Shown: positions 110 through 10,745 of the stretch, in pieces
Layout: each line of letters opens with the position of its first letter
Numbering within the stretch: position 1 is the stretch's first letter
From: Marinomonas communis
GTDB lineage: Bacteria; Pseudomonadota; Gammaproteobacteria; Pseudomonadales; Marinomonadaceae
Assembly (NCBI RefSeq): GCF_004363305.1
Contig: NZ_SNZA01000001.1
Location: forward strand, 832,902-896,901
Length of the DNA stretch: 64,000 nt
Reading direction: 5' to 3'
Notes under the pieces: model-generated
Seen by the model: only the letters and a program-made list of their open reading frames with translations
The model's database searches: none
What the model was told of the DNA's origin: nothing
Program-made: the position numbers and the translations under genes

Positions 110-1621
110 ATGGATGCTTTATCTTATTTTGCCATTTCTTGGCTATCGCCAGAGTTATTAGGACTAACAGCTCTTGGTACGTTTTTAGGCATTTATGTAG
201 GCGCTATTCCCGGCCTATCCGTCACCATGGCGGTGTCTATTCTGATTTCATTCACCTTTTCATGGGACGTTAACTACGCTTTATGTTTGATGGTTGGCGT
301 ATTCATGGGGGGTGTTTACGGTGGTTCACGAACGGCTATCTTGCTAAATATTCCTGGCGCACCTTCCGCCATAGCGACTGCATTAGATGGCTACCCGCTG
401 GCGAAAAAAGGTTTAGCAGGTGAAGCCATCGGTCTCTCAACTATCATGTCGGTTGTAGGTGGCTTTGTCGGTATTTTTGTTCTTTCAATCGCAGCGCCCA
501 GTATCAGTGAATTCGCCCTAACTTTCCAACCACGTGATTACATGATGCTGGGGATTCTAGGCATCATGCTGGTCGGTTCGTTGTCTGGCGGCAGCTTGGC
601 AAAAGGTATTTTTGCCGGTGCTTTTGGTCTTCTAATCGGTACGGTTGGCCTTGACCCAATGACCGCTGAAGAACGCTTTACCTTTGGCGTCGTTGAGCTT
701 TGGGATGGTATTAACCCTGTTGCCGTGATGATTGGATTGTTTGGTATTTCAGAAGCATTGCATCAACTGCACCATATGAACAAAGCGGTTGTGAAGCAGA
801 AGATCTCACGCATCATCCCAAAATGGATGGATGTTAAGAAATACCTACCATTGAGTCTGCAGTCTTCATTCATTGGCGTAATCGTCGGCGCTTTACCAGG
901 CACTGGCGGTGACATTGCGGCTTTAATGGCTTATGACCATGCTAAGCGTATTACCAAAAAGCCTGAAGTTGAGTTCGGTAAAGGGGCGAAAGAAGGCCTG
1001 ATCGCTCCGGAGGCCGCCAACAATGCTGCGGTAGGTGGCGCTTATATCCCGATGCTGACACTTGGGATTCCAGGTGATGCAGTAACCGCTGTGTTTATCG
1101 GTGCGTTGTTTATTCATGGATTGAACCCTGGCCCACTATTAATGGTAGAACAGCCTCATATGTTCTGGTTTACCGTGGGCAACCTGACCCTTGCTAACAT
1201 CTTCGTTCTGATTTTCGGTTTAACAGGTATCAAGCTGTTTTCTAAAATCGTCGAATGCCCAAAAGGCATCCTGATCCCATTGATTTTCCTATTGTCAGTG
1301 GTAGGTGCTTACGCCATCAATAACTCTGTAATTGATATTTGGTGGATGCTGGCATTTGGTGTGTTTGGTTACTTCATGCGCCAATATGGCTTCCCTGTTG
1401 GGCCTGTTATTCTTGGTGTGATCCTAAGTAGTTTGACCGATGAAAACTGGCGTCGCGCGATTTTGTCAGAACGCGGCAGTCTAACCGATCTATTTAGCAA
1501 CCTATTGAGCAGCCCTCTATCGACAGTATTGCTGTTCGCTATCGTCTTTATTTTGGTTTCTCAGAGCCCTATTTGGACTCGATGGATTAAACCCAATCTA
1601 CTGCGCTCCAAAACGAACTAG
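110..1621 (+). CDS. tctA: Tripartite tricarboxylate transporter permease TctA
   Basis: Large membrane subunit of a TTT-family secondary transporter, which takes up a carboxylate delivered by a periplasmic TctC protein and is driven by an ion gradient. The 503-residue length is normal for TctA. The N-terminus is hydrophobic with the glycine/proline-rich IPGLSVTMAV stretch, and the conserved central region GALPGTGGDIAALMAYDHAK plus APEAANNAAVGGAYIPM and LGIPGDAVTA are clear. The start ATG has a strong SD (GGAGGGG at 96-102, 7 nt away). No tctC is seen after it, so the binding protein is probably upstream of tctB. Substrate cannot be read from sequence; the neighbouring genes suggest an aromatic or hydroaromatic carboxylate. 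Confidence 0.93.
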   Translation: MDALSYFAISWLSPELLGLTALGTFLGIYVGAIPGLSVTMAVSILISFTFSWDVNYALCLMVGVFMGGVYGGSRTAILLNIPGAPSAIATALDGYPLAKKGLAGEAIGLSTIMSVVGGFVGIFVLSIAAPSISEFALTFQPRDYMMLGILGIMLVGSLSGGSLAKGIFAGAFGLLIGTVGLDPMTAEERFTFGVVELWDGINPVAVMIGLFGISEALHQLHHMNKAVVKQKISRIIPKWMDVKKYLPLSLQSSFIGVIVGALPGTGGDIAALMAYDHAKRITKKPEVEFGKGAKEGLIAPEAANNAAVGGAYIPMLTLGIPGDAVTAVFIGALFIHGLNPGPLLMVEQPHMFWFTVGNLTLANIFVLIFGLTGIKLFSKIVECPKGILIPLIFLLSVVGAYAINNSVIDIWWMLAFGVFGYFMRQYGFPVGPVILGVILSSLTDENWRRAILSERGSLTDLFSNLLSSPLSTVLLFAIVFILVSQSPIWTRWIKPNLLRSKTN

Positions 1622-1637: not shown

Positions 1638-1665
1638 AATGCCGGCCTAGCGCCGGCATTTTTTT
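1638..1665 (+). terminator. Intrinsic terminator of the tct genes
   Basis: A 9-bp perfect GC-rich stem (1638-1646 with 1652-1660, 5-nt loop) is followed by a run of T, 17 nt after the tctA stop. Confidence 0.9.
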
Positions 1666-1858: not shown

Positions 1859-2587
1859 ATGACTGCTCACACTCTTGATGTAAAGCCATCTGTACTCGGT
1901 TTAGAATTTATCGAGATCGTGGCTCAAGATATGGATTACATCCGTTCTTATCTTAATCAGCTTGGATTCACACTGACGTCAAAGCACAGAAGAAAGCAGG
2001 TCTATTTATTTCAACAAGGCCACACCAAGATCATCGTCAATGCATCAGATGACCTCACTGCAGAAGCCTATTTCAACGAGCTCGGAGTTTCGATCTATGC
2101 CATTGCCCTACGCTGTCATCAAGCTGCTGATGTCTACCATAATGCGATCGAATTAGGTGGCTGGGATAAGTCAAATCATTCAGGTCCGATGGAAATCAAC
2201 ATTCCAGGCATAGAAGGTGTGGGAGGAACATCTCTCTACTTCATTGATCAACCTCGGGAAAATTTAAGTGTTTACGATATCGACTTTGTTGAGCTGGATG
2301 AACCTGAAGCCAGTACATCCATGATCGAACGCTTCACAGCGGTCAACTTTACGGTTGAAAAACAGCGCGCCCATGCTTTAACCCTATGGTTACAACGTTT
2401 ACTTGGTCTTGAAGAAAACAAGAACTCAGTCGAACTGTTAGATGGATTCCAAATTCGTTTCACTGAAGATGCAGACAACAGTGAACGTTGTGACTACGTC
2501 AATGTATTAAGTGTGGAGCGTTCTAAGGATAGCCAATCACAGTCACTACCAAGTCTTGAAAACTCTGCGTTTTTGATCGAGGGATAA
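1859..2587 (+). CDS. VOC-fold protein related to the HPPD-like half of QuiC1, likely non-catalytic
   Basis: The N-terminal ~145 residues follow the first VOC domain of 4-hydroxyphenylpyruvate dioxygenase closely: LGLEFIEIVAQD, LGFTLTSKHRRKQVYLFQQG, IIVNA and GPMEINIPGIEGVGGTSLYF. The C-terminal half is short (242 residues in all, versus about 350 in HPPD). Where HPPD carries its first iron-binding His (the IDH motif), this protein reads IDF, so it is probably not an active dioxygenase. In QuiC1-type 3-dehydroshikimate dehydratases such a domain is fused behind a TIM barrel; here it is a separate gene placed before the barrel gene, 3 nt apart. A binding or scaffold role for its neighbour is an inference. 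Weak SD (GGGG at 1847-1850). Confidence 0.72.
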   Translation: MTAHTLDVKPSVLGLEFIEIVAQDMDYIRSYLNQLGFTLTSKHRRKQVYLFQQGHTKIIVNASDDLTAEAYFNELGVSIYAIALRCHQAADVYHNAIELGGWDKSNHSGPMEINIPGIEGVGGTSLYFIDQPRENLSVYDIDFVELDEPEASTSMIERFTAVNFTVEKQRAHALTLWLQRLLGLEENKNSVELLDGFQIRFTEDADNSERCDYVNVLSVERSKDSQSQSLPSLENSAFLIEG

Positions 2588-2590
2588 ACT

Positions 2591-3400
2591 ATGCGCTTGT
2601 CGATCTCTGCGAATCTGTTTAACGGCAACCTTGAGCACATTTTCACCCTATTCACTGAGTACGGCATTACCCATGTCGACTTGACGCATACCGATGTTAA
2701 AGCGGATGCCCGCAGCTTAGAAAACCTTGTTGACTTGTCCAACCGCTACAACATTTCGTTTAACAGTGCATCAGGGCTTAGAGAATACGGTGGAAACACC
2801 AATCATATTCACGAGTACGATACGGAAATGGCACGTACCTATATTCGTGCTTCTAAACGCCTAAACTGTAAAACCTTAGTGGTTACAGCGCCAACGATTC
2901 GATCAAAAGACATTGATCAGAAAAAGATCATCAATGATCTGCGCATATTGGCTAACATGGCGTTACCGTACAATATCAATATCGCTTTAAAAGTCTTGCC
3001 GTGGTCACCATATATTGGAAGCTACGAGTCTGCCCAGGACATCATTGCTGCGGTCAACAGCCCTAACTTTGGCCTTGCCTTAGACACTTTCTTATTTATT
3101 TGTGACGCAGAGAACTTAGACGTACTGGAGACGTTGCCGGTTGATAAGATTTTTATCGTGCAATGCTCTGACCTAGCGGTCACATTAATTGATTCACTAG
3201 AAGAACTGATCGACGCAGATCGCAGCAAGCGCCTATTACCAGGTGATGGCTACTTTCATGATGACATCAAACACATCTGCAACACCTTAACGAGCAAAGG
3301 TTATCACTCTCCTTTCAGTGTATACGCAAATGGAAATAGCTATCACGATATGTCTCACGAAGCGCTATTACAAAGGATTTGTCAGATCTCACTCGCTTAA
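2591..3400 (+). CDS. Sugar phosphate isomerase/epimerase-like TIM barrel (QuiC1/AsbF relative with altered metal site)
   Basis: A 269-residue AP-endonuclease-2/xylose-isomerase-type TIM barrel. Alternating strands are visible (THVDLTH, TLVVTAP, NIALKVLPW, FGLALDTF, KIFIVQCSD, PFSVYANG), and the pattern is that of 3-dehydroshikimate dehydratase barrels. In that family the divalent metal is held by Glu, Asp, Gln/His and Glu on these strands. Here Asp165 and Gln191 remain, but the first Glu is Lys134, the second is Tyr245, and the His of the LDxFH motif is Leu168. The dehydratase activity is therefore doubtful. Good SD (GAGGG at 2579-2583) inside the end of the VOC gene, so the two are probably co-translated. 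Confidence 0.75.
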   Translation: MRLSISANLFNGNLEHIFTLFTEYGITHVDLTHTDVKADARSLENLVDLSNRYNISFNSASGLREYGGNTNHIHEYDTEMARTYIRASKRLNCKTLVVTAPTIRSKDIDQKKIINDLRILANMALPYNINIALKVLPWSPYIGSYESAQDIIAAVNSPNFGLALDTFLFICDAENLDVLETLPVDKIFIVQCSDLAVTLIDSLEELIDADRSKRLLPGDGYFHDDIKHICNTLTSKGYHSPFSVYANGNSYHDMSHEALLQRICQISLA

Positions 3401-3895
3401 GAAAGATGAATTATGGCGACTTTCTCAAAGCTAAGTAGACACACATAATCTATTTCGATTTGACGAGGCAGGTATTAGTTTTTGAGAACGCGTTGAATTT
3501 CATTTTATGAATGAAATTTTATTTTCTGAATAGCGCTATTTTATTATGGATAAAAGATCAGAAAAAAATAGCGCGATAAAACCTTAACCATATGATTTAA
3601 ATATAGTTTTACCCATTTTAAAATTTTCAAAAAGCATACATTCCATTTCGTCATATTAGATGACGCAAAAATTCATTTCTAAATACATTCATTTTCGTTC
3701 ATTTTTGAACCGTTCTAATTCGATAGCAGAGTCGTAGAACACTCCTAAACGTTCTATCGCCAAATTGTGACGGCTAGTTTCAAATTACGAGCTATAGTTT
3801 GAAAGTCCAATGCGATGGTTAAACTCGTTTGAGTGCGTCAATGTATTACAAGAAATATAAAGATGATGGGCCTCGCCCTAACTTGGAGACAATTT
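3401..3895. other. AT-rich 495-bp intergenic region with several inverted repeats, upstream of dctP
   Basis: No convincing gene is present. It contains a 9-bp stem with 5-nt loop (3496-3504 with 3510-3518), a perfect 12-bp palindrome AATAGCGCTATT at 3529-3540 whose left half AATAGCGC recurs at 3567-3574, a 6-bp inverted repeat CGTCAT/ATGACG at 3649-3665, and TAGAAC/GTTCTA arms at 3735-3756. The first may end transcription of the TIM-barrel gene; the others are candidate operators for the TRAP genes. Frames that read upstream from dctP begin at GTG 3833 but have no usable SD. Confidence 0.5.
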
Positions 3896-4906
3896 ATGAA
3901 ATTTGCGAAAAAACTGATGCTAGGTTTAGCAACTGCAGGTATGGCAAGTGTTGCCTCAGCGGCAGATATCACTCTAACGATTGGTCACGTAGACCCTCAA
4001 GAGTGGACTTCTTCTAAAAAAGGCGCGGCAACAGAAGTCTTTAAAAATCTAGTAGAAGCCGAATCAGGCGGTCGCATTGAAGTAAATGTTTATCCTTCTG
4101 GTCAGCTAGGTGGCGAGACGGATCTTGTTCAATCTGCTCAAGAAGGCATGATTAGCATGACAATGGTTTCTGGTGCCTTTGCTAAGGTGTGTAAAGAAGC
4201 CTCTGTTCTTGAGATCCCTTACCTATTCCCATCTGCACCTGTTGCTTGGGAAGTACTGGACGGTGAGTTTGGTAAAGCCTTGTCTGAGCATTGTTTAGAG
4301 CAAACTGGCCTTCGTACACTTGCTTACGGCGAAACAGGCTTCCGTAACTTCACCAACTCTAAACGCCCAGTCGCAGAGCCTGCAGATCTTGAAGGTTTGA
4401 AGATCCGCGTTATGACTCTACCTCTATATGTAGAGATGGTTAAAGCAATGGGGGCTGAGCCAACACCTATCGCATGGCCAGAAGTACCATCTGCATTAAC
4501 AACTGGCGTAGTAGACGGTCAAGAAAACCCAGTGAGTGTTATCGACGCTAACAAATTCTACGAATTCCAAAAATACCTAACCTTAGACGGACACGTTTAC
4601 GGTACTGACTTCTTCTTGATCAACGAAGACATTTACCAGTCATTAGACCAAGCTGACCAAGAAATCGTTGCACGTGCCGCAAAAGTTGCCGGTACACTAG
4701 GTCGCGCCATTCAACAATTTAACTCGGCTAAAGGCTTAAAATCTTTGGCTGAAAACGGCATGGAAATTACAACGCCAACATCAGAGCAATTGGCTAAGTT
4801 CCAAGCGGCTGCTCAACCAGCTGTTATCGAATGGTTGAAAGGTGAAGTTGATTCACAATGGATCGATCACGTTCAAGCGTCTGTAAAAGCTGTTAAATCT
4901 AACTAA
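3896..4906 (+). CDS. dctP: TRAP transporter solute-binding protein DctP
   Basis: Periplasmic binding protein of a TRAP carboxylate transporter, 336 residues. The ATG at 3896 was chosen over an in-frame GTG at 3833 because it has an SD (GGAG at 3885-3888, 7 nt) and starts a clean Sec signal peptide, MKFAKKLMLGLATAGMASVASA, cut before ADITL. DctP family marks include YPSGQLGGETDLVQSAQEG, the LKIRVM-type stretch (GLKIRVMTLPLYVEMVKAMGAEPTPIAW) with the Arg that binds the ligand carboxylate, and GVVDGQENPV. It leads a dctPQM operon. The substrate is not evident; proximity to the QuiC1-like pair makes a shikimate-type acid possible but unproven. Confidence 0.92.
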   Translation: MKFAKKLMLGLATAGMASVASAADITLTIGHVDPQEWTSSKKGAATEVFKNLVEAESGGRIEVNVYPSGQLGGETDLVQSAQEGMISMTMVSGAFAKVCKEASVLEIPYLFPSAPVAWEVLDGEFGKALSEHCLEQTGLRTLAYGETGFRNFTNSKRPVAEPADLEGLKIRVMTLPLYVEMVKAMGAEPTPIAWPEVPSALTTGVVDGQENPVSVIDANKFYEFQKYLTLDGHVYGTDFFLINEDIYQSLDQADQEIVARAAKVAGTLGRAIQQFNSAKGLKSLAENGMEITTPTSEQLAKFQAAAQPAVIEWLKGEVDSQWIDHVQASVKAVKSN

Positions 4907-4929
4907 TTCCATAAACGGACATTAGTATT

Positions 4930-4958
4930 AATAATCGGGGACTATGTCCCCGATTATT
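4930..4958 (+). repeat. Strong intercistronic hairpin between dctP and dctQ
   Basis: A perfect 13-bp stem (4930-4942 with 4946-4958) with a 3-nt TAT loop lies 23 nt after the dctP stop. No T run follows, so it looks like an mRNA-stabilising or partial-attenuation element rather than a full terminator. It would favour high expression of the binding protein over the membrane subunits. An in-frame ATG for dctQ at 4944 falls in its loop, which argues against using that start. Confidence 0.75.
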
Positions 4959-4991
4959 GTATCAACTCAATTGTTATTCCCGGAATCGCCC

Positions 4992-5465
4992 ATGATACTC
5001 CACTACAAACGCATGCTGGCTTTTTTAACAGGTACATCACTGTTTGTTATTTTCGCCGTGGTACTTGTCAGCAGCCTAAGTCGCTACTTACTAAACGCCC
5101 CCATTCAATGGAGCGAGGAAGTGGCCCGATACGCCATGATCTATGGCACCATGTTTGGTACGGTACTTTGTTATCTGCATGGCATTCATATCCGTTTTTC
5201 TTTTCTTGAAGACGCGGTAAAGCCTGCTGCAAAACGCTTCCTACAACTTATTTCAGATGTGGTGGCGCTCGTTTCTGGTGGCGTACTGACTTACTCTGGT
5301 TACATTTTCATGATGAAGCGCGGTGCTATCAATGCGCCGGCCATGGGCATCCAAATGTATTACTTCCAAGCTGCAATGGTTGTTGGTGGTGTCTTACTGG
5401 CTATTGCCGCACTACTTCGCATTGTCGAGTTCTTCACTAACAAACACCAAGAGGAAGGTAAGTAA
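4992..5465 (+). CDS. dctQ: TRAP transporter small permease DctQ
   Basis: Small four-helix membrane subunit of the TRAP transporter, 157 residues from ATG 4992. The family signature is plain: FAVVLVSSLSRYLLNAPIQWSEEVARYAMIYGTMFGTVLCYLHGIHIRF (Asn/Trp/Glu-Glu motif after helix 1). The ATG at 4944 would add 16 residues but starts in the loop of a 13-bp hairpin and has no SD, so 4992 is preferred; its own SD is weak (CGGAA). It lies between dctP and dctM, 2 nt before dctM. Confidence 0.88.
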   Translation: MILHYKRMLAFLTGTSLFVIFAVVLVSSLSRYLLNAPIQWSEEVARYAMIYGTMFGTVLCYLHGIHIRFSFLEDAVKPAAKRFLQLISDVVALVSGGVLTYSGYIFMMKRGAINAPAMGIQMYYFQAAMVVGGVLLAIAALLRIVEFFTNKHQEEGK

Positions 5466-5467
5466 TT

Positions 5468-6736
5468 ATGTTGGGCTTTGGTGTTTTATTGATTCTACTG
5501 GCAATAGGTAGCCCTATTGCATTTGCTATTCTATTGGCTGTGGTTGGCCACGTTTCAACGCTTCCGTTCAATATGAGCCTTGTGGCACAACGTGTATTTG
5601 CGGGGTTAGATTCGTTCTCTATCTTGGCCATTCCATTATTCGTTCTAGCGGGTGAGCTCATGAACGAGAGTGGTATTACCAGCCGCATTATTAATTTTGC
5701 TAACGCACTGGTCGGGCACATGCGAGCAGGTCTTGCGCAAGTGAACATTTGGGCATCGGTCATCTTTGCAGGGTTATCAGGCTCAGCGGTGGCAGACACT
5801 TCCGCACTTGGTCGAGTATTCATCCCGACCATGGAAAAAGAAGGCTACCCACGTTCTTTTGCTGCCGCACTGACGGCTGCCTCATCGGTGATTGGCCCGA
5901 TGATCCCACCCAGCATTCCTGTGATCATTTATGCTTTGATCACTACTGGCGTATCGGTACCTGCACTGTTCTTAGCTGGTGTTGCGCCTGGTTTATTCCT
6001 AGCCTGTGGTTTGTCCATTTACGTTTATTTCTTTGCGGGCCACTACGCAGAACTAAAACCGAAGCAGACCATGAAAGAGCGTATGAAGGCATTCGTTCAA
6101 GCATGGATTCCGCTGTTTATGCCGATCTTCATTGTTGGGTCGATCTTAACGGGTATCGTGACGCCGACTGAAGCAGCAGCTTTTGCCGCGGCCTATGCAT
6201 TGATCGCGGGTATGTTCATTCTTCGTACTTTGAAAATTGTCGACCTACCAGCGATCTTCATCCGTGCGATGCGTGACTCTTCCGTTGTTCTTATCATCAT
6301 GGCAGTCATCGCTGCAGCAAACTGGCTACTAACATTCTCTCGAGTGCCTCAAACAGTGTCTGAGTTGGTGCTTGACTCCGTATCCAGCCCTTGGATGTTC
6401 TTGATCCTAGTGAACGTGATTCTATTGGTGATTGGTTTGTTCCTAGAAGGTATCGCTGCAATGCTAATCCTTCTACCAATTCTTCACCCAATCGCGATGA
6501 CATTAGGCATCGATCCAGTTCACTTTGGTATCGTCGTCATCTTTAACTTGATGATCGGTCTGGTGACACCACCAATGGGTATCTGTTTATTCGTCTCCAA
6601 CTCCATTGCCAACGTTGGTATCGCTGCGATTTCGAGACAAATCATGCCGATGTTCTTAGTCGAGCTAGCAGTACTACTCTTGATAACGTTTGTACCAAGT
6701 ACGGTAACCTTCTTACCTAGGCTATTCGGGTATTGA
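5468..6736 (+). CDS. dctM: TRAP transporter large permease DctM
   Basis: Large subunit of the TRAP transporter, 422 residues with about 12 hydrophobic segments; it carries the sodium and substrate sites that work with DctP and DctQ. Typical motifs are LAIPLFVLAGELMNESGI, WASVIFAGLSGSAVADTSALG, MIPPSIPVIIYA and TPTEAAAFAAAYAL. SD GAGGAAGG (5451-5458) sits 9 nt before the ATG. It is the last gene of the operon and is followed by a clear terminator. Confidence 0.94.
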   Translation: MLGFGVLLILLAIGSPIAFAILLAVVGHVSTLPFNMSLVAQRVFAGLDSFSILAIPLFVLAGELMNESGITSRIINFANALVGHMRAGLAQVNIWASVIFAGLSGSAVADTSALGRVFIPTMEKEGYPRSFAAALTAASSVIGPMIPPSIPVIIYALITTGVSVPALFLAGVAPGLFLACGLSIYVYFFAGHYAELKPKQTMKERMKAFVQAWIPLFMPIFIVGSILTGIVTPTEAAAFAAAYALIAGMFILRTLKIVDLPAIFIRAMRDSSVVLIIMAVIAAANWLLTFSRVPQTVSELVLDSVSSPWMFLILVNVILLVIGLFLEGIAAMLILLPILHPIAMTLGIDPVHFGIVVIFNLMIGLVTPPMGICLFVSNSIANVGIAAISRQIMPMFLVELAVLLLITFVPSTVTFLPRLFGY

Positions 6737-6952: not shown

Positions 6953-8185
6953 ATGAAGCATCGGCTTTGTTCGATCTATGGGTCGATTATTGCGTTAAGT
7001 ACAGGAATGATGTATTCGAAAATAGCCTTGGCTGATGATAGGGTTCAAGTCTCTGGCTTTACTCGTATCGTAGCTGGTTACTTAAATACAGATGATGCTG
7101 AATTTCGAGGATATAAAGACGATATTCAATTCTCACCAAACTCCCTTTTGGGGTTACAAGTAAACGCTCAAGCAAATGAACATATTTCTCTCACTGCGCA
7201 AGGAATACTGCGTGCCGATAGTGATAAAGACTCCGGTCTAGAATGGTTCTACGCGACTTTACAGCCTGAAGATAATCTATCTTTTAAAGTAGGCAAGTTA
7301 AGAACACCATTTTTTATGCACAGTGATGTATTAGATGTTGGCTATGCATATCATTGGATTAGCCCTCCTCCGCAAATGTACAATGCATTTCTATTTCCAA
7401 CATTTGAAGGTGTAAATGCAACTTACGGCCATTTCGGTGAACATTATGATGTATCTTTTGAAGCTTATTTAGGACAACATTCAGGGGATATTGATCTTAA
7501 TAATACTCGTACCCAATACGATGTAGAAGTATTAGGTGGTTTTATCACTGAGGTCAAACGAGAAAACTTAACGTTTAGAGCTTCGATCCACCAAGGGGAC
7601 GTTGACGTCTCTCTGCCTCAACTAGAATCGTTAGCCGCTGCTTTAAAGAACTATTCTATGTTCAATAAAACAGTTGATGCTCTCTCATCTCAAAGCCAAA
7701 TCGATGTCATGCAATTCGGCGTTCGGTATGACAACTTAAATTATTTCACTGCTGCAGAATGGGTGAAAATCAAACCAAATCAAAAAACATTTTTACCCGA
7801 GATTGATACCTATTATCTCACTGGGGGTTATGTATTTGATCCTGTAACCGTTCACGTGACTTATGCAAAAAGCAAACTTCGCTATAGTGATTTTCCATCA
7901 GAGGTCAGTGATACTTTAACTAATCTCCCTACCTCAAGCCCACTTTACCCAGGGTTATCGCAAGCCGCATATGGCTTGAGCACTATTGAGAACTCAAGAA
8001 GTAGTGACAGTTTAAATTCATGGACTATAGGCGCTAGATGGGATGTGAAACCAAGGCTAGCTCTAAAAGCTGACATTACGTTCTTACATGGAAATGATGG
8101 TGAAACAGCGATGTTTGAGTCCATTAAAGATGGATTTGATCGAGAGTCACAACTTTATCAAGTAGCAATGGAGTGGGTATTCTGA
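6953..8185 (+). CDS. Outer-membrane beta-barrel porin-like protein
   Basis: A 410-residue protein with signal peptide (MKHRLCSIYG...SKIALA cut before DDRVQVSGF), then alternating amphipathic strands (VQVSGFTRIVAGYL, HISLTAQGILRAD, LSFKVGKLRTPFF, YDVSFEAYLGQ) and a final strand ending in Phe (LYQVAMEWVF), the usual C-terminal signal for BAM insertion. Similar barrels are often annotated as porins or selective channels; the substrate is unknown. SD AAGGA at 6942-6946; a perfect TATAAT at 6921-6926 could be a -10 box, but no good -35 was found. The stop codon shares one base with the next start, so the three genes to 10745 look co-transcribed. Confidence 0.8.
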   Translation: MKHRLCSIYGSIIALSTGMMYSKIALADDRVQVSGFTRIVAGYLNTDDAEFRGYKDDIQFSPNSLLGLQVNAQANEHISLTAQGILRADSDKDSGLEWFYATLQPEDNLSFKVGKLRTPFFMHSDVLDVGYAYHWISPPPQMYNAFLFPTFEGVNATYGHFGEHYDVSFEAYLGQHSGDIDLNNTRTQYDVEVLGGFITEVKRENLTFRASIHQGDVDVSLPQLESLAAALKNYSMFNKTVDALSSQSQIDVMQFGVRYDNLNYFTAAEWVKIKPNQKTFLPEIDTYYLTGGYVFDPVTVHVTYAKSKLRYSDFPSEVSDTLTNLPTSSPLYPGLSQAAYGLSTIENSRSSDSLNSWTIGARWDVKPRLALKADITFLHGNDGETAMFESIKDGFDRESQLYQVAMEWVF

Positions 8186-8628
8186 TGAACGTATTTATCC
8201 TCTCACATCGACAACTAAGAATTATTGCCCTAGCAGTTTTCATGCTGATTACCACTATTCCTCATAGCTATGCTGAAGCTTCTCTATACATTATCACCAA
8301 CCAAAATTCTGATATTTCAGAGTTGAGTAGCAACGAAGTACGGCAAATTTATATGGGAGGTACATTGAGTAGAAAACTAAATGCGATTTCTCTCCCTGTA
8401 GATAGCTCTATTCGCAAGAATTTCAATGTCAGCATAATAGGCCTGACCGAAAACCGAATTCAATCCTATTGGGCTCAACTGTTCTTTACAGGAAGAAGTT
8501 CTAGACCGAAGGAATTAAAAACTGTTAATGAAGTTGTAGATTACATATCTAGTGAAGTAAATGTTGTCGCTTACGTACCTGCGAATGTTGAATTACCTAG
8601 TAATGTAGTTGTTTTATTTCAACGCTAG
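8185..8628 (+). CDS. Short periplasmic PstS-like substrate-binding-type protein
   Basis: 147 residues from ATG 8185, which overlaps the porin TGA by one base; an in-frame GTG at 8173 is possible but less likely. A signal peptide is followed by ASLYIITNQNSDISELSSNEVRQIYMGG, the opening seen in short phosphate-ABC-type binding proteins, in which the DVYTIFLG-like helix follows the first strand; NEVVDYISSEVNVVAYVPAN near the end also fits. It is only half the length of a true PstS and there are no ABC genes, so a sensory or accessory role with the following GGDEF-EAL protein is more likely than transport. Confidence 0.7.
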   Translation: MNVFILSHRQLRIIALAVFMLITTIPHSYAEASLYIITNQNSDISELSSNEVRQIYMGGTLSRKLNAISLPVDSSIRKNFNVSIIGLTENRIQSYWAQLFFTGRSSRPKELKTVNEVVDYISSEVNVVAYVPANVELPSNVVVLFQR

Positions 8629-8654
8629 AATTACTAGCTAACAAGGATCTTTCT

Positions 8655-10745
8655 TTGAAGTTAAGTATACGCTTCAAATTATTAACAATTGGTATCGTTT
8701 CAGTTATCAGCTCTGCTTTAAGTGTGCTTTCAGTGTCATTGAATGAGCATCAGACTCTCTATGCAAATTCTGTAAAAGAAAGTTTAGTTGCGCTAACAGA
8801 GAATACTGCTGATGATATCCTGTTAATAATGTCTGATAACAATGACTCTTTTTTATTAAGGAGCGCTCTGCTGCGCTTCGAACGATATGAGCATATTGAG
8901 TATGCTATTTTATACGATCAAAACTGGAATCAAATAGAAATCTACTTGAAACCAAGTCTCATTAACAAATTTGAAAAAGAACTAATAACTATACCTTCAA
9001 AGGCACCGAAAAATTTGCCTTTAGGCGTTTCTGTCCTAGAAAATAGCTTTTACGCATTACAAGAGATTGGTGAAAATAAGTTTCTTCAAGGCTATTTACT
9101 TGTTACTCATGAATACTCAAATCCTATCGAAAAAAGCCAAAAAGAGCTGTTAAAATTAACACTCCCCTTAATTTTTATTATCTTAGCTGTGGCAATAAGC
9201 GCCACACTCTTTACTATCAGACAGCAACTTTTTCCGCTACTCAAGCTCACTGTTTTTACCAGACACATAAGCCGCTCTAAAAACTATAGCAAACGTTTCA
9301 CTGTTAAAGGGTCCGATGAAGTGAGCACACTGGCGAGTTCGATCAACACGTTACTCGAAGTCATCAATCATGAGATTAAAGAAAACCAAGAAAAAAACAA
9401 TCAACTAACTGAGCAAAAAGAAGCGATGTATAGGCTAGCCAATTACGACCAATTGACTGGTTTGCCTAATAGAAGACACGTAATGACATTGCTTCATGAA
9501 TTATTACAGAAGCATAGCGCATTAGATCAACTTGTCGCATTGCTGTACTTCGATATCGATTATTTCAAAAGCATCAATGACCGTATGGGGCATGAGGTAG
9601 GAGATAAACTGCTTGTTGAAGTTGGTAGAACCGTTACCAAATTATTAGAAAAAGACCAGATACTCGCTCGTCTTGCTGGAGATGAGTTTCTGATCATCAT
9701 TCCAAATCCTCCGAGCAAACAAGTGCTTTTTAACATTACCGAAAAACTCACTACAGCTTTCAACACACCACTAGTGATTGAAAAATGGAGCATTCAGACT
9801 GGTATTAGTATTGGTGTCTCTGATACCCATGACGCAGGCTATAAAGTAAATGATTTAATCAGCTATGCAGACATCGCTATGTACCATTCAAAAAACTTCA
9901 AGAAAGGTACTGCAACATTTTTCAATTCACAAATGCTGATAGAAAGTCAGCGCCACACTCTAATAGTCAATGGTATCATTGATGCCGTTCGAGACAATGA
10001 GTTTCAGCTTTATTATCAACCTAAGATTTCTAATCAAGGAATTGTTGAAGGGCTTGAAGCATTAATTAGATGGGAAAGTAAAACCCTAGGCAGTTTGTCA
10101 CCTAGCGAATTTATTCCTATCGCAGAAACATCAGGAAAAATTTCAGATATTACGAAGTGGGTAATTGATCAAGTTCTGGATGACCTACCAAGATTGCTTG
10201 AATACAGCAACAAAAACATCGTCATCTCATTCAATATTTCTTCTTATGATTTGATCAGTGGCTGGTTAGAGGATTACATCAGGCAATTAATCTCCGTTCA
10301 CCCTAATGCTCTACAACATTTGCAGTTTGAAATCACTGAATCAAGCTATCTTAATGACTTCGACCAAGCTAACCGGCTATTTTCAATGGTGCAAGAAGCA
10401 GGCGGTTCTGTCGCCCTAGATGACTTCGGTACTGGTTTCTCATCTTTAAGTTATCTTAGCCGGATAGACATTGATACGATCAAAGTCGACAGAGCCTTCA
10501 TAGACAATTTCATCAATGATTACCGAGAAAAAGCTGTTCTCAATTCAATACTAGAACTCTCAGACCAGCTGGGACTTAACATTTGTTGTGAAGGAGTTGA
10601 GAACATCGAACAAGCCAAATATCTTATCGTAAAGAAATGCCACCTTATGCAAGGCTTTTACTTCTCTGCTCCCACCCCAATTGAGGAGCTGTCGATCGCA
10701 GTAGACCAAGCGCAGCAGCGTTATCAAGCTCTAGGACTTTTCTAA
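8655..10745 (+). CDS. Membrane-bound GGDEF-EAL c-di-GMP protein with periplasmic sensor
   Basis: 696 residues. Membrane helix at about 8-28, periplasmic domain to ~165, second helix ~167-187, HAMP-like linker, GGDEF domain ~260-420 and EAL domain ~440-690. The cyclase signature reads AGDEF (~341-345), a variant that can still be active in some proteins. The phosphodiesterase part keeps EALIRW and DDFGTGFSSLSYL, so c-di-GMP breakdown is expected. The start is TTG at 8655, supported by AGGA at 8644-8647. It follows the porin and PstS-like genes; the periplasmic domain may sense a signal bound by them. Its end overlaps the convergent gene by 15 bp. Confidence 0.88.
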   Translation: MKLSIRFKLLTIGIVSVISSALSVLSVSLNEHQTLYANSVKESLVALTENTADDILLIMSDNNDSFLLRSALLRFERYEHIEYAILYDQNWNQIEIYLKPSLINKFEKELITIPSKAPKNLPLGVSVLENSFYALQEIGENKFLQGYLLVTHEYSNPIEKSQKELLKLTLPLIFIILAVAISATLFTIRQQLFPLLKLTVFTRHISRSKNYSKRFTVKGSDEVSTLASSINTLLEVINHEIKENQEKNNQLTEQKEAMYRLANYDQLTGLPNRRHVMTLLHELLQKHSALDQLVALLYFDIDYFKSINDRMGHEVGDKLLVEVGRTVTKLLEKDQILARLAGDEFLIIIPNPPSKQVLFNITEKLTTAFNTPLVIEKWSIQTGISIGVSDTHDAGYKVNDLISYADIAMYHSKNFKKGTATFFNSQMLIESQRHTLIVNGIIDAVRDNEFQLYYQPKISNQGIVEGLEALIRWESKTLGSLSPSEFIPIAETSGKISDITKWVIDQVLDDLPRLLEYSNKNIVISFNISSYDLISGWLEDYIRQLISVHPNALQHLQFEITESSYLNDFDQANRLFSMVQEAGGSVALDDFGTGFSSLSYLSRIDIDTIKVDRAFIDNFINDYREKAVLNSILELSDQLGLNICCEGVENIEQAKYLIVKKCHLMQGFYFSAPTPIEELSIAVDQAQQRYQALGLF

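Follow-up and report, generated by a model that had tools for sequence, protein, structure and literature searches.

Two adjoining genes of Marinomonas communis were analysed within a 64,000-nucleotide stretch of contig NZ_SNZA01000001.1 (positions 832,902 to 896,901), referred to here as the window. The first gene, at 1859..2587 (+), encodes a 242-aa VOC protein with an N-terminal VOC domain of the HPPD/QuiC type and a shortened second domain. The second, at 2591..3400 (+), encodes a 269-aa xylose-isomerase-like TIM barrel of the QuiC type. Both frames are intact and 3 nt separate the VOC stop codon from the barrel ATG, so that the earlier note on this DNA was right to call them intact and coupled. 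In Pfam, the VOC protein matched Glyoxalase_5, the HPPD N-terminal family (E 3.4e-35), and the barrel matched AP_endonuc_2 (E 6.3e-19). Each protein also matched one half of the NCBIfam model of QuiC (NF042435, 635 positions), the barrel at positions 2-239 (E 5.7e-16) and the VOC protein at positions 294-471 (E 1.4e-21), in agreement with the note's description of a split QuiC-like pair in reverse gene order. The pair's scores of 76.7 and 58.1 bits are far under the model's 1200-bit cut-off; this cut-off is not decisive, because the fused QuiC of M. communis itself reaches 607.6 bits and also fails it. Profile and structure comparisons show the barrel to be a xylose-isomerase-like homologue of QuiC1. 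A QuiC-type fusion carries the barrel in front of the HPPD-like domain in one chain; here there are two genes in the same orientation, that of the VOC protein immediately preceding that of the barrel.

The pair is flanked by transporter genes. Upstream, the tctA gene of a TTT transporter occupies 110..1621 (+), with tctC and tctB lying upstream of the window. Between tctA and the VOC gene is a terminator-like stem-loop with a T tail (1638..1660, +), which is a pattern match of a kind found twice in the region scanned versus a shuffle mean of 1.6. Downstream are the DctP-DctQ-DctM genes of a TRAP transporter (3833..6736, +), which also occur in the pair-holding clusters L112, L115 and L157-L161. 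Beyond TctCBA, the opposite strand carries genes for a LigK-type aldolase, 4-oxalomesaconate tautomerase, two amidohydrolases, two LigB-type dioxygenases, a shikimate-dehydrogenase-like protein and a fused QuiC that is complete (619 aa); the fused gene lies outside the window, some 11 kb upstream of the VOC gene. Genes for a Gfo/Idh/MocA oxidoreductase, an aldo/keto reductase (AKR) and a LysR regulator lie there on the + strand. The names LigC, LigI and LigJ are applied to less specific matches by presumption from the protocatechuate 4,5-cleavage pathway rather than on proof from the models. The two LigB-type genes, of class III extradiol dioxygenases (L009:9542-11786, same cluster), perhaps serve two ring-cleavage substrates. 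Within the window, 6953-10745 (+) encodes a porin, a small protein with a weak DeoRC match and a HAMP-GGDEF-EAL protein, perhaps forming a coupled sensing operon.

Metal-site residues and fold of the barrel

The active site of QuiC1/QsuB, as listed in the available part of PMC7442255, comprises Arg64, Leu97, Glu134, Leu136, His168, Asp165, Gln191, Ser206, Arg210 and Glu239. According to the available part of PMC9324987, Glu142, Asp172 and Glu253 of AsbF coordinate the metal and are conserved in the three dehydratases compared, and three dehydratases assayed had zero activity without added metal. These AsbF ligands correspond to positions 134, 165 and 245 here, a correspondence taken via the QuiC1 list in the same part of PMC7442255.

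On QuiC numbering, the M. communis barrel has Arg64, Lys134, Leu136, Asp165, Leu168 and Gln191; by alignment its Arg214 is the equivalent of QuiC Arg210 and its Tyr245 that of QuiC Glu239. Among the QuiC1 active-site residues, the equivalents of R64, L136, Q191 and R210 are retained, and those of L97, H168 and S206 are Val, Leu and Asp. The QuiC-type ligand set Glu134/Asp165/Glu239 reads Lys, Asp and Tyr, so that two of the three metal ligands are substituted, one of them by a basic residue. Lys134 is encoded by AAA at 2990..2992 (+) and Tyr245 by TAC at 3323..3325 (+), the two positions at which QuiC has its metal-binding Glu residues. All five residues named in the earlier note (Lys134, Asp165, Leu168, Gln191 and Tyr245) were confirmed by the alignment.

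A structure model of the barrel (pLDDT 74.1, pTM 0.77, 5 sequences; residues 63-73 and 196-219 below 50) places positions 134, 165 and 245 at strand ends and 191 inside a strand, as expected of a metal site. The model is only moderate, so that a contact between Lys134 and Asp165 is proposed by homology. The best Foldseek matches were IolI (1i60, 1.6e-14) and QuiC1 (5hmq, 2.2e-13). In VIA-align the top rows were tied: 2q02 (Z 25.0, rmsd 3.1, 248 aligned), 4hgx (24.9), IolI (24.2, rmsd 3.6, 257 aligned) and 5hmq (24.1, rmsd 3.1, 250 aligned). A single-sequence search likewise gave a tie between QuiC1 (7.4e-11) and IolI (9.9e-11). Profile A7, built from 9 rows, gave 9e-44 for QuiC1 versus 4e-20 for IolI. 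An IolI-type inosose isomerase was therefore rejected as first choice: structure ranks IolI first, with the same fold and 20% identity over 257 residues, but the profile match to it is far weaker than that to QuiC1. The single-domain dehydroshikimate dehydratase AsbF (3dx5) also shares the fold (VIA Z 22.0, rmsd 3.2 over 243, 12% identity) and differs in its ligands, Glu142/Asp172/Glu253 in the available part of PMC9324987 as against Lys/Asp/Tyr here. In the case of QuiC1/QsuB (5hmq, NF042435), both halves are homologous and belong to the same catabolic cluster; the pair differs in being two genes in reversed order, in the replacements Glu134 to Lys, Glu239 to Tyr and His168 to Leu, and in the shortening of the second VOC domain.

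Related pairs with and without the metal-site residues

Searches were performed in the genus, class, order and two further families, f216 and f217. In the genus, strong pair matches were found in 4 of 48 genomes, and the other matches were long frames that fit fused QuiC; the named Marinomonas loci with the pair are those of M. ostreistagni, M. pontica, M. rhodophyticola and M. polaris. The class search returned 3 of 369 genomes, namely M. communis, G175 with a two-gene pair and G432 with a fused QuiC, and the order search returned 8 of 390, namely M. communis, four new pairs and three fused QuiC. The family searches yielded 17 pairs in 116 f216 genomes and 3 in 44 f217 genomes, including the four from the order search. 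With each pair counted once, 5 Marinomonas, 17 f216 and 3 f217 pairs make a clade of 25. One locus found by the barrel profile (L135) proved to be a fused QuiC that has Glu, and it was counted in the QuiC group instead of among the pairs. The idea of a private Marinomonas oddity was rejected, since the order and family searches gave 20 pairs outside the genus. A scan of genome contigs with two short peptide patterns, which misses diverged members, returned only 4 loci, all of them from Marinomonas.

Every member of this clade has a basic residue at position 134 (Lys in 21 of 25, Arg in 4, Glu in none), and Asp165, Leu136 and Arg214 are each present in 25/25. Gln191 is found in 21 pairs and is Arg in the remaining 4, which are the Arg134 members (as read from the printed rows). 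His168 is retained in 11/25. Position 245 is Asp in 12 members, Ser in 4, Tyr in 4, Phe in 2, and Asn, Gln and Leu in one each; in the five Marinomonas members it is Tyr, Tyr, Gln, Phe and Leu, with Asp in none. Where Asp245 is present (12/25, no Marinomonas member among them), the site remains partly acidic. Of the two substitutions to which the earlier note had drawn attention, the one at 134 is general in the clade, in the form of a basic residue, and the one at 245 belongs to a variable position. In the fused QuiC rows (n = 27, without L135), Glu245 is invariant, Glu134 is replaced only once, by Ser, and Asp165 only once, by Asn.

In a maximum-likelihood tree of 84 barrels, the 25 basic-134 members are set apart by one branch (support 100/99), the 31 Glu-bearing two-gene pairs described below by another (99/94) and the 28 fused QuiC by a third (100/100). 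The tree was midpoint-rooted and came with warnings of long branches (S_L134, S_L118 and S_L126 among them) and of unusual composition in the rows of M. communis, M. ostreistagni and S_L133, so that one origin of the clade is well supported and the direction of change is deduced. The most degenerate barrels found are those of L132-L134 (genomes G1191, G1189 and G1276), in which Asp194 is Ala and much of the PGxG loop is lost. One f216 pair (L126/L163, genome G1246) clusters with the pairs of Marinomonas and lies in a LigC-AKR-VOC-TIM setting like theirs, which suggests horizontal transfer of the cluster between families.

Both frames are open in 24 of the clade pairs. In M. rhodophyticola (L034:9222-9996), the VOC frame is broken or frameshifted; a nearby carboxylase gene also looks broken, suggesting an assembly error there. 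Between M. communis and M. ostreistagni, dN is 0.107 for the barrel and 0.139 for the VOC gene, as compared to 0.001-0.059 for 14 other cluster genes and 0.008 for fused QuiC; a 946-aa reverse-strand frame (dN 0.250) looks spurious and was left out of the neighbour range. Omega is 0.0855 for the VOC gene in this comparison and 0.053 for the barrel between M. rhodophyticola and M. polaris. In f216 and f217 it ranges over 0.034-0.139 for the barrel in nine comparisons (0.034-0.063 in seven of them) and over 0.100-0.244 for the VOC gene in the eight that were computable. These values are rough, with several dS near or above 1, and many Marinomonas pairs were saturated and excluded. Both genes are under purifying selection, which is weaker than that on the adjoining enzymes.

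Two-gene pairs that keep the metal ligands are found in the family of genome G175, for which "Burkholderiaceae-type" is a presumed working label. The barrel was matched in 132 of 399 genomes of this family, and residues were checked in 31 of the 132 matches, the 30 best-scoring and G175 (L046 and L050-L079). In all 31 a VOC match adjoins the barrel on the same strand, as in M. communis, and Glu134, His168 and Glu245 are present; these residues, a separate branch and a longer VOC protein set the Burkholderiaceae-type pairs apart. The M. communis barrel lies outside this Glu134/Glu245 branch, on its own 100/99 branch without Glu. Homologues in the same gene order that retain Glu do therefore exist, but Glu occurs at 134 or 245 in 0/25 members of the M. 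communis clade. The VOC-first order pointed out in the earlier note is real and is not peculiar to M. communis, being found in 31/31 Glu-bearing pairs and in 20/20 further basic-134 pairs, which belong to the order of Marinomonas.

AroE, AroQ or TRAP-like matches were seen near many of 21 wider Burkholderiaceae-type stretches. Fused QuiC was missing from 8/10 genomes in a smaller sample. When this was extended to the 399 genomes, fused QuiC was found in 15 of the 132 with a barrel match, and in 5 of the 31 whose residues were checked, leaving 26 without. From this pattern of presence and absence, the Glu-bearing pairs are likely to be the dehydroshikimate dehydratase of many genomes that have no fused QuiC, and they may represent an unrecognised two-subunit form of the enzyme. 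No published name for them was found among the matches listed in a literature search.

In the basic-134 clade, by comparison, a fused QuiC match was present in 24/24 genomes searched, and the frame spans 617 aa or more in 23 of them; that of genome G011 is broken and covers only 351 of 635 model positions. Fused QuiC is on the pair's contig and within 45 kb in 21/24, the exceptions being G011 and G1203 (other contigs) and G1108 (about 735 kb away). Fisher tests gave 2e-18 and 8e-11, which are a guide only because the genomes are related and the counts not independent. The simplest reading is that a lone pair keeps its metal site and that the basic-134 clade, beside a fused QuiC, abandoned it. 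However, the 15 genomes with both fused QuiC and a Burkholderiaceae-type match indicate that QuiC presence alone does not explain the loss, and the loss is not forced by it either, given that 5 of the checked Glu-bearing pairs occur together with a fused QuiC.

The gene order LysR-LigC-AKR-VOC-TIM is shared by M. pontica, M. rhodophyticola and M. polaris. Twenty stretches of about 11 to 20 kb around the non-Marinomonas basic-134 pairs contained a Tct gene in 13 instances, AroE in 13, QuiC in 12 and DctM in 11, and a GntR-like regulator, judged by eye, in 14. Two (L170 and L171) carry AroE-QuiC-VOC-TIM in one direction, followed by a reverse gene of about 222 aa and TctCBA; two others (L162 and L166) have none of Tct, AroE, QuiC and DctM within the stretch examined. 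The barrel of L168 and the VOC gene of L114 are unlabelled in the context map and present in the residue table. These recurring neighbours tie the pair to the uptake and breakdown of quinate/shikimate-type acids.

The VOC protein and the HPPD iron site

The model of the VOC protein is poor (pLDDT 62.1), with HPPD as the best match, followed by 5hmq. By alignment, the equivalent of the HPPD iron-binding His is Ala161 and that of His240 is Val, so the M. communis protein does not have the 2-His-1-Glu iron site of the second HPPD VOC domain. The third ligand column holds Glu in one alignment and a gap in another, because the second domain is shortened. The earlier note had placed an IDF motif where HPPD has its iron His; this was an error, as YDIDF also occurs in genuine HPPD. 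Its broader claim that both halves look unable to bind their metals agrees, for the barrel, with the substituted ligands, but for the VOC half it was argued from a misalignment. Loss of these His residues is not special to this pair, because the Glu-bearing pairs lost both too: their positions are Gly and Arg in 30/31, with a gap in one row, and the third ligand Glu is kept in 30/31 (the VOC frame of L074 is incomplete). Among the VOC partners of the basic-134 barrels, the first iron His is found in 0/4 Marinomonas and 1/20 other rows and the second in none. The N-terminal domain of the VOC partners is conserved. For the HPPD-like domain of QsuB, the available part of PMC7442255 proposes a role in oligomerisation and reports that no activity on protocatechuate was found. 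By analogy, the conserved VOC N-terminal domain would fit such a role.

Possible roles of the pair

The identity of the pair, its linkage and its altered metal site are very probably as described. Judged from sequence, homology, pocket residues and pathway context would place it beside the catalytic QuiC family, and its ligands and lack of fusion outside. It would be a two-subunit paralogue of QuiC, barrel plus VOC, in a quinate/shikimate-to-protocatechuate cluster. Its barrel appears to have lost the divalent-metal site through the change of one Glu to Lys or Arg and variation of the other, with Asp165, Leu136 and Arg214 kept, and the pair is presumably not a dehydroshikimate dehydratase. Replacement of a metal-holding acid by a basic residue suggests that the protein probably binds a molecule of a related kind but does not carry out the usual reaction. 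The basic residue would occupy the former place of the metal, next to Asp165, and maintain a pocket for an anionic intermediate, with 3-dehydroshikimate, protocatechuate or a similar compound as candidate ligand, and the VOC subunit might serve in oligomerisation, as has been suggested for the corresponding part of the fused enzyme. The intermediate may then be bound but not turned over, and the pair could assist or regulate either QuiC or uptake. This non-catalytic role is given a probability of roughly 0.4.

The invariant Asp165, Leu136 and Arg214 and the strictly basic position 134 would be equally expected of an active site or a binding site. A metal-independent enzyme is almost as probable as the non-catalytic role: Lys or Arg134 beside Asp165 would replace the cation and polarise the substrate, a quinate/shikimate-type acid, and the enzyme would be an isomerase, epimerase or lyase. 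The constancy of basic 134, Asp165 and Arg214 throughout the clade and the low barrel omega in seven of nine comparisons are consistent with this, as are the titles of several solved barrels of this fold, which name isomerases or epimerases; the fused QuiC accompanying the pair in every genome searched (one with a broken frame) also leaves it unneeded for the dehydratase step. However, there is wide variation at the second ligand position and at position 168, the pair evolves faster than the neighbour genes compared, and the recognised pathway steps appear to have genes of their own, some under presumed names. Arg134 in 4/25 also speaks against an obligatory Schiff-base lysine, and a mechanism of that class I style was set aside on the premise that all members share one function. 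The full scheme, a conserved barrel subfamily in which Lys or Arg replaces the catalytic metal, pairs with Asp165 and, with the VOC subunit, carries out an undescribed metal-free step on quinate/shikimate-type acids beside a metal-dependent sister, is slightly less probable. The non-catalytic role is narrowly favoured because positions 245 and 168 drift and positions 134, 165 and 214 are frozen.

Continued function as a metal enzyme, possibly as a dehydroshikimate dehydratase, with the metal held by Asp165, Gln191, other ligands or VOC residues, is unlikely. The retention of Asp165 throughout, Gln191 in most members and Asp245 in nearly half would allow it, and a weaker metal site is conceivable in the 12 members with Asp245. 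However, a basic residue occupies a ligand position in every pair, position 245 in Marinomonas is Tyr (twice), Gln, Phe or Leu, and the VOC partners offer almost no iron His. A decaying redundant copy kept by chance is very improbable, and a degenerate pseudogene was rejected, since the raised dN of both genes, the redundancy with fused QuiC and the broken VOC frame of M. rhodophyticola are outweighed by open frames in the other 24 pairs, omega well below 1 and a neighbourhood that recurs in three families.

No split or metal-less QuiC pair was found among the matches listed in a literature search of titles and abstract openings. The pair constitutes a natural experiment, in which three bacterial families retain both a metal enzyme and an apparently metal-less sister within one pathway, and poses the question of whether a single basic side chain can replace a catalytic metal or whether a dead copy became a sensor for the pathway. 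The unexplained role of the HPPD-like half of QuiC is concerned too, since that half has a gene of its own here, retained next to a barrel that is probably incapable of the dehydration. In the fused QuiC of M. communis (L009:6451-8310), Gln replaces the second HPPD iron His (VQQIAF), as it does in L047, which suggests that the HPPD-like half of the fused enzyme is probably without an iron site as well.
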